This document shows positions 34,918 through 40,796 of a DNA stretch of 64,000 bases, piece after piece. Position 1 is the first letter of the stretch. Every line of letters starts with the position of its first letter. The DNA is from Candidatus Melainabacteria bacterium (GTDB lineage Bacteria; Cyanobacteriota; Vampirovibrionia; Obscuribacterales; Obscuribacteraceae), in assembly GCA_003151275.1 (NCBI GenBank), contig PLXC01000189.1, positions 1 through 64,000 of the forward strand. Direction: 5' to 3'. The position numbers were made by a program, and so were the translations under genes. The notes below the pieces were generated by a model that saw only the letters and a program-made list of their open reading frames with translations, did not search any database and had not been told where the DNA came from.

Positions 34918-35931
34918 TTAGAAACCGATGCGAATACCGCTTCCGTTGTTACCTAGGGGTATGCGAACACTGAGTCCGACTCGGTTATTATCGAAATAAG
35001 GTCCACCATTCCCGCGGCCATAACGACCAGAATTACCATCGTTCCAGCTGCCGCCGTTATTCCAGCTGCCGCCGTTATTCCAGCTGCCGCCGTTGTTGTT
35101 GCCGTTTCCAAAGCAACTGTCATTTACATAGTACGGAAGTTGTCGCTCTGGTGGACGTTGGTTGGCATGCCTGCTCTGTTGGTTGTATATCTGAATGCGC
35201 AGCTGCTGGTCGTAATCTCTTTGGTTCTGACCATTTTGTTGAAAGTCACCCGTTCCTTGATAACGATCGCGCTGATATCCTTGATCCATCTGCTGTTGAC
35301 GAACATAGTCTATTTGTCGACCTCGATCATAGGATTGATCAAGCTGCCGCTGGCGAGCCATGTCTATTTGACGCTGACTGGCATCGGCCTGATCAAATTG
35401 ACGCTGCCGAGCCATTTCAATTTGCATGTCACGATAATCTCTTCCGCCGCCGCTCCCGCTATCAGGAATGCTATAGGTGCCGTTTGAGGGCGACCGCTGC
35501 GTGTCATAGAATCGAGGCTGCTGATCGCGCTGGGCCAAGCCAGCGACATTGGGATCTACGTTTCGGAAGTCTTGTTTGGGATCTCTTCGATAGTCGGCAC
35601 CATCAATGGAAGATTGATTGAAGTATGCATTTTTGCAATGGATATTATTGATGATGACAGTTCCGTCACCTCTTACCTCACGCTGAACAAAAGTCTGCGG
35701 ATAATCGCTCTCTCGGATCTGCCCAGGCATACGGTCGCGATGGAATGCGTCGTGGTTTTGGTCGCCATTGCTCTGGCCACTTCCATCGTATATATAGTTG
35801 TCGCCGCCGCCGGATTTACCCTGCTGCCCCTGTTGTTGATTACGTGCGTCCCCGCTCCACCTGAACACATCGTCAGAATTGCCGCCATTACCGCCAGCGC
35901 CGGGGTTTGTATATCTTGGAACGTCGGACAT
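34918..35931 (-). CDS. Low-complexity Gly/Asn/Gln/Arg-rich protein
   Basis: 337 residues with no signal peptide. The first part is Gly/Asn/Ser-rich; the middle (about 165-240) is a charged Gln/Arg/Asp-rich repeat with the pattern MARQRQxDQ; the C-terminus has three GSWNNG repeats coded by an 18-base tandem repeat near 35041-35098, then a conserved-looking beta strand pair ending in RIPLGNNGSGIRIGF. The last 20 residues could be a folded membrane-strand signal. No family recognised. The coding sequence is real judging by the clean frame, terminator and upstream TATATACATATTCTGG-like promoter region. Confidence 0.65.
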   Translation of the reverse strand: MSDVPRYTNPGAGGNGGNSDDVFRWSGDARNQQQGQQGKSGGGDNYIYDGSGQSNGDQNHDAFHRDRMPGQIRESDYPQTFVQREVRGDGTVIINNIHCKNAYFNQSSIDGADYRRDPKQDFRNVDPNVAGLAQRDQQPRFYDTQRSPSNGTYSIPDSGSGGGRDYRDMQIEMARQRQFDQADASQRQIDMARQRQLDQSYDRGRQIDYVRQQQMDQGYQRDRYQGTGDFQQNGQNQRDYDQQLRIQIYNQQSRHANQRPPERQLPYYVNDSCFGNGNNNGGSWNNGGSWNNGGSWNDGNSGRYGRGNGGPYFDNNRVGLSVRIPLGNNGSGIRIGF

Positions 35932-36271
35932 GGGACTCTCCTTACACTATGACGCGCGGGCTGAATGGTAACGCTTGTCTATATACATATTCTGGAAAAG
36001 TTGGACTGTCAATGGTGAAAGCCCCACCTAAATTCCTGTATGCCTCAACTGGATGGCTTCTTACTCGGGGGTGTGAGCCTGAAAAACGGACGGCACATTA
36101 GCATTATTCCCTCCGCCAGAGTTGGACAAACCGAGCCGGGTTCTAAATTCCCGCGCCTTACCTCTTCAAATATACGAAACGGCTGTGAGTATTCAGTGAC
36201 ATTAAATATTAAATTGACAGCAGTCCCCAGAAAACGCAATGACTGACACCCTGCAATGTAAGCGTAATCTG
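35932..36271. other. Intergenic region before the tRNA array
   Basis: About 340 bases. It must carry the promoter of the minus-strand low-complexity gene. Small frames at 35907-36101 and 36040-36246 have no protein character. Nothing else is recognisable. Confidence 0.4.
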
Positions 36272-36301
36272 TTGCACCACTTTTGCATTATTGTGTTATA
36301 G
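36272..36301 (+). promoter_or_regulatory. Candidate promoter of the RNA/tRNA locus
   Basis: TTGCAC at 36272-36277, then 18 bases, then TTATAG at 36296-36301 with TG just before it (extended -10). Transcription would start near 36308 and read through the inverted-repeat region into the tRNA genes. Confidence 0.5.
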
Positions 36302-36307
36302 TCGAAG

Positions 36308-36585
36308 AAAGTTTCGTTCGGGAAATAAGATCGTGAACCGTTTATTCCAGCATCAAAGCCAGACACTCAGCCAATTTAGTTGGCTGTCGTTTGCGCTGTT
36401 GAATTTGCCCGCTGGAATAAATCAAAAGGATCACGATCATGTTTCGCTATCACTACACCAAAGTACGTCGCACCAATAGAACCGATTGCCCGTCGGGAAT
36501 CGGCTCATGGCGGCGTCGTTCGTGCATTGCGTTGGCGCGTGGAATGATTCCGCAGCGACCCTGGCGCCAAGTGTCCAGTTTTTAA
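36308..36585 (+). ncRNA. Candidate structured RNA upstream of the tRNA array
   Basis: Nested perfect inverted repeats. P1: GATCGTGA 36329-36336 with TCACGATC 36431-36438 (8 pairs). P2: TTTATTCCAGC 36341-36351 with GCTGGAATAAA 36411-36421 (11 pairs). P3 inside: CAGCCAA 36369-36375 with TTGGCTG 36381-36387. Further on are CCGATT/AATCGG (36482-36487, 36498-36503) enclosing CCC/GGG, and TTGGCGC/GCGCCAA (36532-36538, 36564-36570) enclosing GGAAT/ATTCC. No tmRNA, RNase P, SRP or 6S motif is visible. An AAAGGA in the internal loop between P1 and P2 could instead be the ribosome-binding site of a 48-codon frame at 36439. Length, ends and function are inferred. Confidence 0.45.
36439..36585 (+). CDS. 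Possible small basic protein (48 codons), doubtful
   Basis: ATG at 36439, stop TAA at 36583-36585, with AAAGGA eight bases upstream. The product would be Arg-rich (MFRYHYTKVRRTNRTD start) with no recognisable fold. Two strong hairpins lie inside the frame, which favours structured RNA over coding. If translated, the upstream P1/P2 stems would place the ribosome-binding site in an internal loop, suggesting structure-controlled translation. Confidence 0.25.
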   Translation: MFRYHYTKVRRTNRTDCPSGIGSWRRRSCIALARGMIPQRPWRQVSSF

Positions 36586-36728
36586 ATCAAATGTAAATCA
36601 AATGGAGTGCGTGCTTTAGCGTGCTTCGAAAACGAGGTGAGCTTGCTGCACATCAGCTATCGCTGTGCGCTTTTGAGCAAAACAAAACAGTAGCGCGAAA
36701 ATCTGATCAATACACACTTTGTTCGTAA

Positions 36729-36799
36729 TGGCCCGTCGTCTAATGGTAGGACTCCGCCCTTTGAAGGCGAGGATCTTGGTTCGAGTCCAAGCAGGCCAG
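36729..36799 (+). tRNA. tRNA-Gln (anticodon TTG)
   Basis: Acceptor TGGCCCG (36729-36735) pairs with CAGGCCA (36792-36798) with one mismatch, discriminator G. Anticodon stem CCGCC/GGCGA-like with loop CTTTGAA, anticodon TTG; T arm CTTGG-TTCGAGT-CCAAG. U1-A72 and G73 fit glutamine identity. CCA is not encoded. First of the array. Confidence 0.88.
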
Positions 36800-36803
36800 A
36801 ATC

Positions 36804-36875
36804 GTGCATGTCGTCCAGAGGCCTAGGATGCCTGGTTGTGATTCAGGCGACACGAGTTCGAATCTCGTCATGCAC
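36804..36875 (+). tRNA. tRNA-His (anticodon GTG)
   Basis: Acceptor GTGCATG/CATGCAC is perfect, anticodon stem CCTGG/TCAGG with loop TTGTGAT, T arm ACGAG-TTCGAAT-CTCGT. A T follows the acceptor (then CCA), and the base before the 5' G is C. It therefore lacks the encoded G-1 and C73 pair expected of bacterial histidine tRNA, so its aminoacylation is uncertain. Confidence 0.85.
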
Positions 36876-36880
36876 TCCAC

Positions 36881-36954
36881 GCCCGGTTAGGAAAATTGGT
36901 AAATCCGCCTGACTTAGAATCAGGACTTTCTCGGTTCGAGTCCGAGACTGGGCA
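36881..36954 (+). tRNA. tRNA with Leu anticodon TAG, short variable loop
   Basis: Acceptor GCCCGGT/ACTGGGC, anticodon stem CCTGA/TCAGG with loop CTTAGAA (anticodon TAG, reads CUA), T arm CTCGG-TTCGAGT-CCGAG, discriminator A, CCA encoded. The variable loop is only about five bases, whereas bacterial leucine tRNAs have a long variable arm. It is clean as a cloverleaf but unusual for Leu. Confidence 0.82.
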
Positions 36955-37019
36955 CCACTTTTAGAACGCTATGCAAAGGAGGATTCAATTGGATTGACAC
37001 GACAGAGGTTCGAACCAAA

Positions 37020-37034
37020 CACCAGATACGGTGA
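37020..37034. repeat. Dispersed 16-base palindrome inside the tRNA array
   Basis: ACCAGATACGGTGA core between the Leu-anticodon and Trp tRNA genes. Just upstream lies a T-arm-like GAGGTTCGAACC, possibly the remnant of a lost tRNA gene. Confidence 0.5.
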
Positions 37035-37061
37035 CCGAACGAATCACTGATAGAAAAACGA

Positions 37062-37132
37062 ACGCAAGTCGGTTAATGGTAAACCAGCGGACTCCAAACC
37101 CGCGACTCGTGGTTCAAGTCCACGCTTGCGTG
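37062..37132 (+). tRNA. tRNA-Trp (anticodon CCA)
   Basis: Acceptor ACGCAAG/CTTGCGT is perfect, D arm GGTT...AACC, anticodon stem GCGGA/CCCGC with loop CTCCAAA, T arm CGTGG-TTCAAGT-CCACG, discriminator G as expected for Trp. No encoded CCA. Confidence 0.88.
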
Positions 37133-37144
37133 ATCATTATGTAA

Positions 37145-37224
37145 GGAGATGAGGCGAGTGGAAGCAAGCTCTTTGCTAAAGAGTCGTCGTAATCCGATAA
37201 CAGGTTCGAATCCTGTCATCTCCG
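37145..37224 (+). tRNA. tRNA-Ser (anticodon GCT)
   Basis: Acceptor GGAGATG/CATCTCC, anticodon stem GCTCT/AGAGT around loop TTGCTAA (anticodon GCT, reads AGC/AGU), long type II variable region (CGTCGTAATCCGATA), T arm ACAGG-TTCGAAT-CCTGT, discriminator G. Canonical for serine. Confidence 0.88.
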
Positions 37225-37228
37225 ATAA

Positions 37229-37301
37229 GCCAACATAGCAATGATGGTTCACGCGCTCGTTTGAAGAGCGAGACATCTCAGTTCGATTCTGAGTGTTGGC
37301 A
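37229..37301 (+). tRNA. tRNA with Gln anticodon TTG, atypical
   Basis: Acceptor GCCAACA/TGTTGGC is perfect, anticodon stem CGCTC/GAGCG with loop GTTTGAA (anticodon TTG), T arm CTCAG-TTCGATT-CTGAG, discriminator A and encoded CCA. The D arm is weak (TGA/TCA at best). G1-C72 and A73 do not fit glutamine identity, so this duplicate Gln-anticodon tRNA may be charged differently or be inactive. Confidence 0.78.
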
Positions 37302-37370
37302 CCATTTTGACACCGCGGCAATGGAGCGCACGCAGCTTTCAGCGCGGAATTGGAGAGCAGGCAAGATGCT

Positions 37371-37400
37371 GCTTCGAAAAATTCGGAGCAAGCTTTATTT
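37371..37400 (+). terminator. Probable terminator of the tRNA array
   Basis: GCTTCGA 37371-37377 pairs with TCGGAGC 37383-37389 (one G-U), five-base loop, followed by AAGCTTTATTT. It lies about 70 bases after the last tRNA and just before the end of the convergent membrane-protease gene. Confidence 0.5.
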
Positions 37401-40400
37401 CGGTAGATCGACGGTTTGCTTATCTTTCAGGAGGACAAGTGCGGTCGCAAAAAGTGGTGCACAAATAATTGCAAAGGAGAGGGCGATCTCTATCTGACCA
37501 ATCTTCTGCACATGTTCAACTAATTCTCCCGAATATATTCCCGACACTACTTCAATCAGAACGAAAACGTAACAAATGGCGTTAAGTCGAAATACGCGAG
37601 TAGTAAACCACCAACACGCCAGTAGCATAGCGATGATTGAAACTGTGTCAATCACACAGTCTTGCCAATACCATGACGAGGCACCAAATAATACTCCGGT
37701 GATGGTGATACAGCTCACAGCTCTGACTGTTGTATTTAAATACCTCCTCCAGAAACTCGCAGTGATGGCGATTGCCATTAATCCAAAAATGAGCCAAGCC
37801 GATACTGCGGTTAACAAATCAACTGCTGGAAAAAACATAGAGAACAGAATCGGAGTATGTCCAGGCATTTCCAGATGCAGTGCTGGTGAGAATCGGGTCA
37901 GTGCGACTGATTGCAAAGTCTTTATTGCAAACAAGACTGCAATGAATGCATAAGAGCCAATTGCTGCGTCGAGCCAAACACTCGACCGAAAAATTCGCTC
38001 GACACTATTTTGCGGCGTCAGGAGAAATCCATGACGAAGCTGATTGGCAATTATTGGGAAGCTTACTTTCAGAGAACTGAAACCAACGATACATAGCAAC
38101 AAGTAGCCAATTGATATGAGGAGCAGTTTCACCGCCTCAGCCGCAAGCGATTGACCGACGAAGGAACTGAAAGTCTCGGCGGTGTTGTATAACACTAACA
38201 ATTTGGCCGCATTATTGAAGCTGGAAATGATCGAGGCAAGTACGCCAACTCCAGTAAAAAGTATTGCTCCCTTCCACTGGATTGAGGTAGATCGAAGAAT
38301 GTGAATGCTCCACACAAGAAAGGCAACCATGAGAGCCAAAACTCCCCCTGCAAGAAGAACTGAGTCTGCTTGTTGATACCACTTCTTTTTCGCCCTGGGC
38401 CAAGACCAGGTGTCCGGAACATCCCAATCAAGCCGAAGTTCAGAGATGTGGTCGCCTTTCACTTCGGTGTTTAGCTTAGCTGCAGTCGACCCAGCGTTGA
38501 ACTTAGGAATGTTCAAGTCAAACTTATAATCAATTCGATTGGCGCGTTCAATTCTGTTTTTACCGTTCACGCTATATGGCGTGAGTTCAGGACGATATTT
38601 TTTTATGTAATCATCGACAATTTTCAAAGCTTCTGATTCATCAAGCTTCTTGCCTGGGCTCTCATCGATGTCTTCAACTAGACTGGCTCGCTTGCTTCCA
38701 TCTCCGTTGAGATAGACCCAAAAAGATTTGGGATCAAGAGGCTTGAAAAATCTGACACGCCATTCCAAACAAGGCTCGGTCTGATTGTAAATCGCCTCTG
38801 TATTGTGACGACCAAGTTGCTCAAAGACGTGTTGCCACTTTTGCGTATCAGAAGAATCAGGTTTGTTAACCAGCTCCACTTCACTCTGGTAGCCCGGATC
38901 GGTCAGCCCATCCTCGTGCAAATATTTCCTGGCAAGACTAAGCGCCTGATGAGAATCAACCCTCACCTGCTTACCTTTGCCGATTCGATCTTCAACAGGT
39001 ATGAGCCCGGCAGACCCGCAGACGACTGCGACCGCAATCAGGCACGATCTGATCCTTTTGCTGAGTGGAACATGTATCGCATCCTCGCGCTCAATCTTTT
39101 GCTCATGCTTTCCCTCAACCGCAGCGGGAGCTTGCAACGTTGCATTGGACAAGTCCAACTCAGGCACATTGTTTGCTCGTGCCCAGCGCTTGCTGTACCA
39201 GACGCCGATTAAAAATGGCACTAAGACGAAGAGAGAAGGAATTATTTGACTGAGTTGGTGCGATGAAAAAACCGGTTCGACAGTTAAGAACGCATCATAT
39301 AAATAGTGGGCAACAAAACATGGCAGCACACCGAAAGCGTTAATTATGCAACCAAAAACCAGTCCGACCACCGTCAACTCCACGCCGCGCGCATAGCTTG
39401 GCTGCTGTGGATACTGACTGTGGGCGAATCCCCAAATCAACGCTTGGATGATATTTGCCAGCCAAAAATTTTTCAACCATCGACGCAATAGACCTAAGCC
39501 GACTACCCGACAGGTAAATTCTTCCAGCCCTGCGGCACTGACACCAATCAATGCTCCGTCGATAGCCGGACAGGCAGTGCCAATTACTTTGTAGTCGTCC
39601 ACACCAAGCGGGCAAAAGAAGCCCAAGTTTTCGCCCAACTTGTAATAGCTGATCACCCAAAACATCATGCCACCAACCAGCAGATATCCAAAGATCATTT
39701 TGCGCGTAAAATCTGACTGCGCCATCCCCTTCAGTGAAAAGAGGAAAGGCATTGCCATGTGCTGCGGCCAGGAGCGGCGATAAACGGTTTCCGCTCCACC
39801 TACAAGCGCGAGGCTTAGTAAAAACGCTCCGACTGCCATCAACAAATCCATGATCACAGTCCTAGTAACAAAATTCGACAACGTTGAACTGGTATCGTAA
39901 GCAGTATCAAGAGTATTCGACCAATTATTGACCTGACCGAGCAAGAATAGAACGCTCAAGATCAGGCTGCTAACGATTGCAAACCGCCAGCGTATGTTGT
40001 GCGTGTTTAGTCCGTGGATGAAGGCCCCGATGGTAGCTGCGATAAATATAAAAATGAAGAAGGATGCGATTTTGCCAAGCAGCTCGTTATTCTCTCGAAT
40101 ACTTTTGTATTCTCGCTTCCACGTATCCGTTGGTGAAAGATAGTATCGATACTCGGAAATTTCATTGCCTGCTACTTCGACACGAATTCTCAATTCCGAC
40201 TCTGGATAACCGCGTTTTCTCCACTCAAAATGTTGATCGAGTCGATTCGGTTTTGTTTCCGCGCCAGAATCGAAAAGTTCATAACCGGCAAGGTCCTGTT
40301 TCCCAGTTTCCTTGATGAACGTTTGTGCAAGTTGCAGGGCGTTATCTTTGCTCAACGAAGGCAATTTCTTGTCGTTTTCTAGCCGATTGAATACCGACTT

Positions 40401-40796
40401 GAGCTGCCCATCGGTAGTCCAAGCGACATAAATCTGCTCTTTGCTCAACTCTTTGCAAAATCGAGTGCGCCAGATCCACACTGGCACGTCGCGCTTCATC
40501 AGCTCATTGGCCTTTTTAATTCCAAGCTTGAATTCAAGAACAGTTTTGGCGTCATCGTCTGATAGAAAAGTAGTGGTCTGAATAAACTTGTCTAAGTTGT
40601 AGCCAAACTTTTCAGCCATCATCCGAGAAGAGGACGCTGCCTCTTCCTTCGTCATTTTCATTTCAAGAGACGCAGCCGGAAAAACTTGCTTGTTGAAGAG
40701 GGCGTAAAAGACAAAACCAGTGATGCTGATCAACACGCAGATGATCAAGGGCAGACTAATCCGTTTCGATTTGTTAGTGCTTGGATCTGAAGTCAA
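37395..40796 (-). CDS. Giant internally duplicated CPBP-type membrane protease
   Basis: 1133 residues. Each half has a short N-terminal membrane helix, a periplasmic-type alpha/beta region with a WRxRFxKxL segment (WIWRTRFCKEL at ~107, LEWRVRFFKPL in the second half), then a bundle of membrane helices. The first half carries the CPBP (CAAX/Abi) protease motifs: Glu425-Glu426-x-x-x-Arg430 (EEFTCR), His459 (FAHSQ) and His497 (AHYLYDA). The second half (from ~581) keeps the architecture but lacks these motifs, so it looks like a catalytically dead copy. Substrates unknown. It is convergent with the tRNA array. Confidence 0.85.
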   Translation of the reverse strand: MTSDPSTNKSKRISLPLIICVLISITGFVFYALFNKQVFPAASLEMKMTKEEAASSSRMMAEKFGYNLDKFIQTTTFLSDDDAKTVLEFKLGIKKANELMKRDVPVWIWRTRFCKELSKEQIYVAWTTDGQLKSVFNRLENDKKLPSLSKDNALQLAQTFIKETGKQDLAGYELFDSGAETKPNRLDQHFEWRKRGYPESELRIRVEVAGNEISEYRYYLSPTDTWKREYKSIRENNELLGKIASFFIFIFIAATIGAFIHGLNTHNIRWRFAIVSSLILSVLFLLGQVNNWSNTLDTAYDTSSTLSNFVTRTVIMDLLMAVGAFLLSLALVGGAETVYRRSWPQHMAMPFLFSLKGMAQSDFTRKMIFGYLLVGGMMFWVISYYKLGENLGFFCPLGVDDYKVIGTACPAIDGALIGVSAAGLEEFTCRVVGLGLLRRWLKNFWLANIIQALIWGFAHSQYPQQPSYARGVELTVVGLVFGCIINAFGVLPCFVAHYLYDAFLTVEPVFSSHQLSQIIPSLFVLVPFLIGVWYSKRWARANNVPELDLSNATLQAPAAVEGKHEQKIEREDAIHVPLSKRIRSCLIAVAVVCGSAGLIPVEDRIGKGKQVRVDSHQALSLARKYLHEDGLTDPGYQSEVELVNKPDSSDTQKWQHVFEQLGRHNTEAIYNQTEPCLEWRVRFFKPLDPKSFWVYLNGDGSKRASLVEDIDESPGKKLDESEALKIVDDYIKKYRPELTPYSVNGKNRIERANRIDYKFDLNIPKFNAGSTAAKLNTEVKGDHISELRLDWDVPDTWSWPRAKKKWYQQADSVLLAGGVLALMVAFLVWSIHILRSTSIQWKGAILFTGVGVLASIISSFNNAAKLLVLYNTAETFSSFVGQSLAAEAVKLLLISIGYLLLCIVGFSSLKVSFPIIANQLRHGFLLTPQNSVERIFRSSVWLDAAIGSYAFIAVLFAIKTLQSVALTRFSPALHLEMPGHTPILFSMFFPAVDLLTAVSAWLIFGLMAIAITASFWRRYLNTTVRAVSCITITGVLFGASSWYWQDCVIDTVSIIAMLLACWWFTTRVFRLNAICYVFVLIEVVSGIYSGELVEHVQKIGQIEIALSFAIICAPLFATALVLLKDKQTVDLPK

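Follow-up and report, generated by a model that had tools for sequence, protein, structure and literature searches.

A conserved rod-shaped RNA with a start codon at its foot precedes tRNA arrays in one bacterial order and is a candidate structure-gated translated leader

Among leader RNAs concerned with tRNA supply, T-box riboswitches sit before synthetase or amino-acid genes, and the leader peptides TnaC and MgtL couple translation to transcription, the position of the ribosome on a short translated leader deciding the outcome for the controlled genes behind it. Type I toxins typically have hidden Shine-Dalgarno sequences. To our knowledge, tRNA operons are taken to be untranslated and, although control by translated leaders is known, we know of no tRNA arrays lying inside the frame that a leader opens. 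GOLLD and ROOL are structured RNAs of unknown function often found near tRNA islands (PMC12286853).

Here we analyse an element lying directly before six tRNA genes in a 64,000-nt stretch of DNA from Candidatus Melainabacteria bacterium (contig PLXC01000189.1, positions 1 to 64,000; the window). As a leader RNA concerned with tRNA supply it resembles the T-box riboswitches but precedes tRNA genes, not synthetase or amino-acid genes. With TnaC and MgtL it would share a short translated leader, but the genes to be controlled are tRNA genes instead of protein genes, the frame often enters them and the peptide is mostly unconserved. GOLLD and ROOL, finally, are far larger and elaborate phage or prophage folds, whereas the element is a rod of 126 model positions with a start codon at its foot. 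The first-pass annotation of this DNA had compared it to the latter two; that comparison was apt as regards a structured RNA tied to tRNA arrays and lacking an Rfam match, and failed as regards a large ornate RNA of phage type. No description of an arrangement of such an element with a tRNA array was found in the openly licensed literature searched.

The element in the window and its comparison with known RNAs

The features of the locus are as follows.

36272-36302, + strand: promoter-like region, TTGCACCACTTTTGC plus extended -10 TGTGTTATAGT ending at 36302; from the alignment, conserved by eye
36320-36445, + strand: core structured RNA (rod), 126 model positions; from covariance models R1 and R2 and identity to a relative
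36329-36339, + strand: P1 5' strand, GATCGTGA and the CC pairing beside it; 8-bp core 36329-36336
36341-36351 with 36411-36421, + strand: P2, 11 bp; C-G to A-U double change
36348-36360, + strand: CAGCATCAAAGCC, where conservation within the rod is highest; no change in any of 7 rows
36368-36374 with 36380-36386, + strand: hairpin at the apex of the rod, 7 bp with a TTTAG loop; double changes from A-U to G-C
36428-36438, + strand: P1 3' strand, 8-bp core 36431-36438; overlaps the Shine-Dalgarno-like AGGA at 36427-36430
36439-36585, + strand: 48-codon leader frame, its ATG right after P1; ends 143 nt 5' of tRNA-Gln
36482-36503, + strand: second hairpin CCGATT..AATCGG; pairing seen, two-sided change at two pairs (seven rows)
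36504-36728, + strand: spacer, site of tRNA-Pro and tRNA-Asn in relatives; conservation lost past 36550
36729-37304, + strand: tRNA array Gln-His-Leu-Trp-Ser-Phe, six genes; ARAGORN and Rfam

The three nested repeats of 8, 11 and 7 pairs recognised at first reading were recovered at these positions, spanning 36320-36503 together with the second hairpin, as were the 48-codon frame after P1 and, by ARAGORN, the six tRNA genes; of the further hairpins proposed, CCGATT..AATCGG was present. The 8 bp of P1 were read within a 22-nt arm pair (I1, 82%), and the gap between AGGA and ATG was 8 nt in most loci when inspected by eye. The segment 36308-36590 folded at -101.3 kcal/mol, compared to -78.6 ± 4.7 kcal/mol for 200 shuffled sequences (z -4.85), none of which folded as well. 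Scores of the window rod were 145.5 bits with R1, which has the window among its building rows, and 120.4 bits with R2, which does not. The stretch CAGCATCAAAGCC was partly altered in more distant rows.

The element was 96% identical to that of a relative across 289 nt. As the single relative of the 1133-residue protein next to the array, the genome collection yielded Candidatus Melainabacteria bacterium palsa_1080 (locus L001), whose protein was 87% identical to that of the window and which has the same array of six tRNAs at the corresponding position. When both loci were compared in 50-nt bins, identity amounted to 90-100% over 36301-36550 and 96-100% in the tRNAs, falling to 46-64% over 36551-36700. 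Since the first of these segments is conserved nearly to the level of the tRNAs and the 150 nt behind it are not, the conserved unit takes in the rod, the second hairpin and the beginning of the frame; it ends near 36550, well short of the limit at 36730 initially assigned. As to the promoter suggested at first reading, the promoter-like extended -10 TGTGTTATAGT is conserved by eye, and an RNA start near 36308 is expected from it. The distance between the -10 and the ATG was 143-145 nt in 8 of the 10 loci listed and 134 nt in L027; in L028 no -10 was found with the pattern used. The flanks of the locus encode, on the minus strand, a divergent 337-residue Gln/Asn/Gly-rich protein with repeats (34918-35931), which adjoins the promoter region, and the 1133-residue protein (37395-40796), which lies past the array, convergent with the tRNAs, and by eye looks like a two-half membrane protease of the CPBP type; the 5' part of a 16S rRNA gene, also on the minus strand (1-377), is cut by the window start.

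Rfam returned only rRNA and tRNA matches over the window and none for the element, in line with the first-pass annotation, which had called for this search and seen no tmRNA, RNase P, SRP or 6S identity. At E<=5, the single match within 36200-36740 was sR28, with 12.1 bits, under its cut-off of 39. No tmRNA was found in the window by ARAGORN or Rfam, no T-box was matched by Rfam in the window or the element, and GOLLD and ROOL gave no gathering-level Rfam match in the window or in 11 related loci. The rod itself has 123-126 model positions without branch points and is thus not a multi-branched fold of several hundred nucleotides. A disguised copy of 6S, SRP or RNase P RNA was ruled out because genome G001 has a 6S-like RNA (36.5 bits, below the cut-off), an SRP RNA and an RNase P RNA on other contigs; among six relatives, 6S was found in two (sub-threshold), SRP in five and RNase P RNA in three. 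Separately, the loci L010 and L011 gave full-length, sub-threshold 6S matches of 40 and 36.5 bits (cut-off 46.4), which are possibly the divergent 6S of the group. Judged from its sequence relatives, the element is a member of an undescribed structured RNA family that has no Rfam counterpart, and adds a family for annotation.

Distribution of the family and covariation of its pairs

The family was found in 21 of the 53 genomes of one order, which we take to be Obscuribacterales, beside tRNA arrays; 15 of these genomes were recognised by covariance model and 6 via their tRNAs. Among the 53 genomes, BLAST detected matches in seven. Six of these lay beside tRNA arrays; the remaining one (L008, E 1.7e-4), without nearby tRNAs, was dropped as chance. 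The seven-row covariance model R1 added three loci from 382 genomes of the class, all beside tRNA arrays. With laxer filters, R2 produced three matches at E<=1 in 40 genomes of the order, and these too lay beside tRNA arrays, a context absent from the model. A further model, R3, gave 8 matches at E<=5 in 40 genomes, of which the best three adjoined tRNAs and were accepted and the other five dropped; in 16 genomes, mostly of known members, it revealed extra copies in a second array of G037, G038 and G001 (two copies). These two R3 runs jointly cover all 53 genomes. The accepted loci thereby numbered 20 including the window, the other 19 lying in 15 genomes. The matches L036-L041 and L045, with no tRNAs nearby, were dropped as chance, and L029 turned out to be the same palindromic stem read on the opposite strand. 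L041 scored 27.2 bits and had no tRNA nearby, yet stood above the accepted L033-L035 (22.8-25.5 bits); since matches without tRNAs were dropped, the link to tRNAs is, among weak matches, partly a criterion of acceptance. All R3 matches of at least 28 bits were beside tRNAs. No further member genome appeared when R3 was run on 386 phylum and 382 class genomes with strict filters at E<=0.1, a cut that misses weak members such as G017, G030 and G049 (E 0.10-0.39); L041 was the sole additional match from these runs.

In place of a conserved 48-codon protein without covariation, we found covariation, and codon bias was absent in the window lineage: among its four sequences, differences at the three codon positions were 50:48:55, with a pooled pN/pS of 0.66 over 33 codons. 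The first-pass annotation had looked to a covariance model and to compensatory changes for its stems, and in the 11-row alignment A5, 89% of the cells paired and two-sided change was seen in 18 of the 27 pairs, which none of 500 shuffles equalled; sliding the partners by 1-3 columns lowered pairing to 25-44%. A5 was fitted to the structure and therefore favours it. Model-fitted alignments were used for the distant rows, whose middle was misplaced by direct MAFFT. In a seven-row MAFFT alignment, 95.2% of the cells were paired and two-sided change occurred in 9 cells (0 of 500 shuffles). Counted by pair, such change affected 4, a figure that 58 of 500 shuffles also reached; for pair types, 471 of 500 shuffles reached the observed number.

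The strong structure and its covariation, together with the lack of coding bias in the window lineage, would also fit a structured non-coding RNA that is processed from the tRNA transcript and acts in trans, the frame being incidental. We consider this quite improbable, given that the AUG and the open frame are kept across lineages and that the loci whose first tRNA is tRNA-Asp show a codon-position bias (see below).

The second arrays (L042 and L046, both on contig C50 of G001, L043 and L044) run Met-Gly-[RNA]-tRNA-like-..-Thr-Lys-Arg-Arg-Val-Asn and contain an additional copy of the module, or two. Behind the first of these copies stands the tRNA-like sequence, with TGC in its anticodon loop; ARAGORN did not call it, and it may represent a tRNA-Ala that is unusual or has decayed. 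By eye, a GCGTAAC-like motif stands shortly 5' of a tRNA in L042, L043, L044, L032 and L026; as it occurs in different reading frames, it is perhaps an element at the RNA level.

The start codon and the frame towards and through the tRNA genes

All 20 accepted loci had an ATG at the 3' foot of P1. Its column was identical in 10 of the 11 rows of A5, the ATG standing one codon later in L032, and it was preceded by a Shine-Dalgarno-like sequence, weak in L031 and L032. From this ATG, frame 0 stayed open for 35-232 codons, compared to a maximum of 46 codons in frame +1 and 18 in frame +2. Between the ATG and the first tRNA, stops in frames 0, 1 and 2 numbered 11, 54 and 46 over the 20 loci (binomial 8e-9), and 5, 38 and 26 over 13 lineages chosen by the analyst (binomial 2.9e-7). 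The probability that a shuffled spacer stays open ranged from 0.006 to 0.71 per locus, the most telling loci being L033 (0.006), with 298 nt of non-tRNA spacer and 0 stops, and L034 (0.007), open over the first 369 of its 389 nt. The structure-controlled leader, mentioned at first reading as an alternative to the structured RNA, also holds, with its ribosome-binding site in the rod; structure and frame are one module and not competing readings.

In 6 of the 20 loci (the window, L003, L004, L005, L027 and L034) the frame ended before the first tRNA, and in all four members of the window lineage it did so 63-148 nt 5' of tRNA-Gln. In genomes G008, G009 and G012, tRNA-Pro lies 51 nt from the start of the ATG and is followed by Asn, Gln, His, Leu, Trp and Phe. 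The second hairpin of the window aligns with CTAATTGTCC-TTCGGGGATTAG of L006, L007 and L009, which is the end of the leader plus the first bases of tRNA-Pro. Since the arrays of L026, L031 and L035 likewise begin with tRNA-Pro, its loss from the window array is the simplest reading, and the window lineage has probably lost both tRNA-Pro and tRNA-Asn here with retention of the hairpin.

What the first-pass annotation had not foreseen is that the frame continues into the tRNA genes of relatives. Frame 0 entered the first ARAGORN-called tRNA in 11 of the 20 loci, crossing two to six tRNAs, and in 14 of the 20 if the tRNA-like sequence of L042-L044 is counted; the start of that sequence was placed by its first bases, ARAGORN calling only its counterpart in L032 (tRNA-Ala) and Rfam not listing it in L043. 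By ARAGORN, the complete tRNAs inside frame 0 were six in L046, four in each of L006, L007, L009, L030 and L031, three in L026, and two in each of L028, L032, L033 and L035; Rfam recorded extra tRNAs, missed by ARAGORN, in L033, L034, L035 and L050. Of 381 cases of a tRNA read in a given frame, only 158 were without stops. The reach of frame 0 into the array was 297-591 nt in L006, L026, L028, L030, L031, L032, L035 and L046, and only 9 of 370 background runs from tRNA starts attained at least 300 nt; the reach in L033 (161 nt) and L043 (130 nt) was matched by 13-16% of background runs too. Another frame extended further into the array in L027 and L044, and likewise in L003-L005 beyond their stop.

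A frame open through several tRNAs is what a repressing ribosome would need, and near the start of tRNA-Pro base pairing is possible between the leader and the 5' end of that tRNA in L006 and, by eye, in L026. These observations give some ground to the main rival of the reading that we prefer, namely negative feedback, in which ribosomes started at the leader would block tRNA folding and RNase P cutting, so that ample translation capacity leads to less tRNA. It is nevertheless unlikely in our judgement, as it leaves unexplained both the open frames in the long non-tRNA spacers of L033 and L034 and the end of the window-lineage frame before the tRNAs.

In the 38 genomes of the order where the models had given no accepted match, a query with the tRNA pair Gln-His gave 12 loci in 8 genomes, and these were scanned with a script for ATG frames of at least 50 codons holding a whole tRNA. 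Six loci in six genomes (L047, L049-L052 and L055; hereafter Asp-first) had a frame of 176-256 codons that crosses tRNA-Asp and tRNA-His and whose start, GGAG...CGATCATG, was the same throughout and lay 223-295 nt 5' of tRNA-Asp; in L049, all five ARAGORN tRNAs lay within the frame. In the remaining six of the 12, such frames measured 52-87 codons and spanned a single tRNA, or were absent. As the Asp-first loci were picked for a tRNA-crossing frame, their independent contribution lies in the start, the codon pattern and the rod. Their spacers before tRNA-Asp held 0, 25 and 12 stops in frames 0, 1 and 2. Without filters, R3 placed a rod before the ATG in 5 of the 6 loci, at 13.7-16.9 bits; that of L055 scored 7.4 bits, lower than an unrelated site in the same locus. 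The GGAG was fully paired in the consensus fold of the six loci.

Over the 73 codons 5' of tRNA-Asp in L049-L052, codon-position differences were 50:41:150 (six pairwise comparisons) and omega was 0.14-0.30. These values indicate, at the level of codon substitution, that the Asp-first leader is translated and that its hydrophobic peptide is under purifying selection. A protein search with the Asp-first frame returned 21 homologues of 131-264 aa, some of them from the same six loci, and by eye 19 of the 19 that were read continued into the tRNA region; if the translated-leader reading is true, such predicted proteins are explained as readings of a leader plus tRNAs. A query of 74 leader codons, with a length window covering shorter proteins, had no match, and short frames may simply go unpredicted.

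Such selection is also what a small-peptide gene under structural control, membrane or type I toxin-like, would show; its tRNA neighbourhood would be due to chance, and cleavage at the tRNA would leave a non-stop message to be cleared by rescue systems. Like the messages of type I toxins, the element has its Shine-Dalgarno sequence hidden in a stem and, in one lineage, encodes a small hydrophobic peptide; by eye, the peptides of L030 and L034 also start with hydrophobic residues. The window peptide (MFRYHYTKVRRTNRT..), however, is basic, those of the other lineages differ from one another and for the most part lack a hydrophobic character, no Pfam match above the cut-off was obtained for the three proteins scanned, one G001 array carries two copies (L042 and L046) and, unlike in toxin messages, the frame enters tRNAs. 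A small-peptide gene is accordingly a distinctly unlikely account.

Codon content bears on classical attenuation, in which a leader rich in codons of the first tRNA would control the array through ribosome stalling. By eye, Pro codons precede tRNA-Pro in L026, Thr codons tRNA-Thr in L028 and Lys codons tRNA-Lys in L030, but inspection by eye also showed no match of this kind in the window, in L032 or in L042-L044, a single codon in L006, and no U-run after the second hairpin. We consider this explanation highly improbable.

A putative translated leader tying tRNA arrays to translation

The hidden ribosome-binding site, the kept AUG and the frame open into the tRNAs, combined with peptides that are mostly unconserved, suggest that the passage of ribosomes is what has been selected. 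The likeliest reading, in which we place about as much belief as doubt, is that the element is a structure-gated translated leader tying the expression of the tRNA array to translation. RNA started near 36308 would fold as a rod whose 3' strand partly hides the Shine-Dalgarno sequence, with the AUG at its foot; once the rod opens, ribosomes would initiate at the AUG, translate the leader and, in most relatives, continue into several tRNA genes, and by trailing the polymerase they would help the long tRNA-array transcript to reach completion. We infer, according to this scheme, that leader and tRNAs form one transcript, that the rod is a switch that can be opened, and that ribosome passage helps tRNA production and does not hinder it. 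That only 21 of the 53 genomes of the order have the element by these searches counts against the translated-leader reading. In its general form, which we advance tentatively, the proposal is that the order expresses tRNA arrays through translation: a switchable start would load ribosomes that read through the tRNA genes, the transcript would be message and tRNA precursor at once, and ribosome traffic would govern tRNA supply.

The textbook reason for coupling transcription to translation is protection against Rho and against terminator hairpins (PMC5021804), and cyanobacteria are reported to be without Rho (PMC13289151). In the member genome G040, a search of 2.39 of the ~6.7 Mb revealed no Rho resembling that of E. 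coli. The one notable match of E. coli Rho to those 2.39 Mb had 22.5% identity over 213 residues (E 1.8e-4). We take that match to be probably an ATPase of the ATP-synthase type. Given the reported absence of Rho from cyanobacteria and the lack of a match in about one third of G040, the Rho-based reason for ribosome coverage may be inapplicable here, and the benefit may be protection from terminator hairpins or another one.

If true, a conserved start site whose frames open into tRNA genes would represent a new mode of controlling tRNA supply; it would connect translation to the synthesis of tRNA, in a way open to testing, in bacteria that may be without Rho, and would raise the question of how a single RNA accommodates both ribosomes and tRNA folding.

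As the frame of the window stops before the tRNAs, translation there would be confined to the leader. From the stop of this leader frame onwards, the Shine-Dalgarno-bearing 13-nt sequence TAAATCAAAAGGA (36418-36430) is repeated twice in tandem, as TAAATCAAATGTA (36583-36595) and TAAATCAAATGGA (36594-36606), so that the stop codon is followed by new ATGs, possibly reflecting re-initiation or a duplication.
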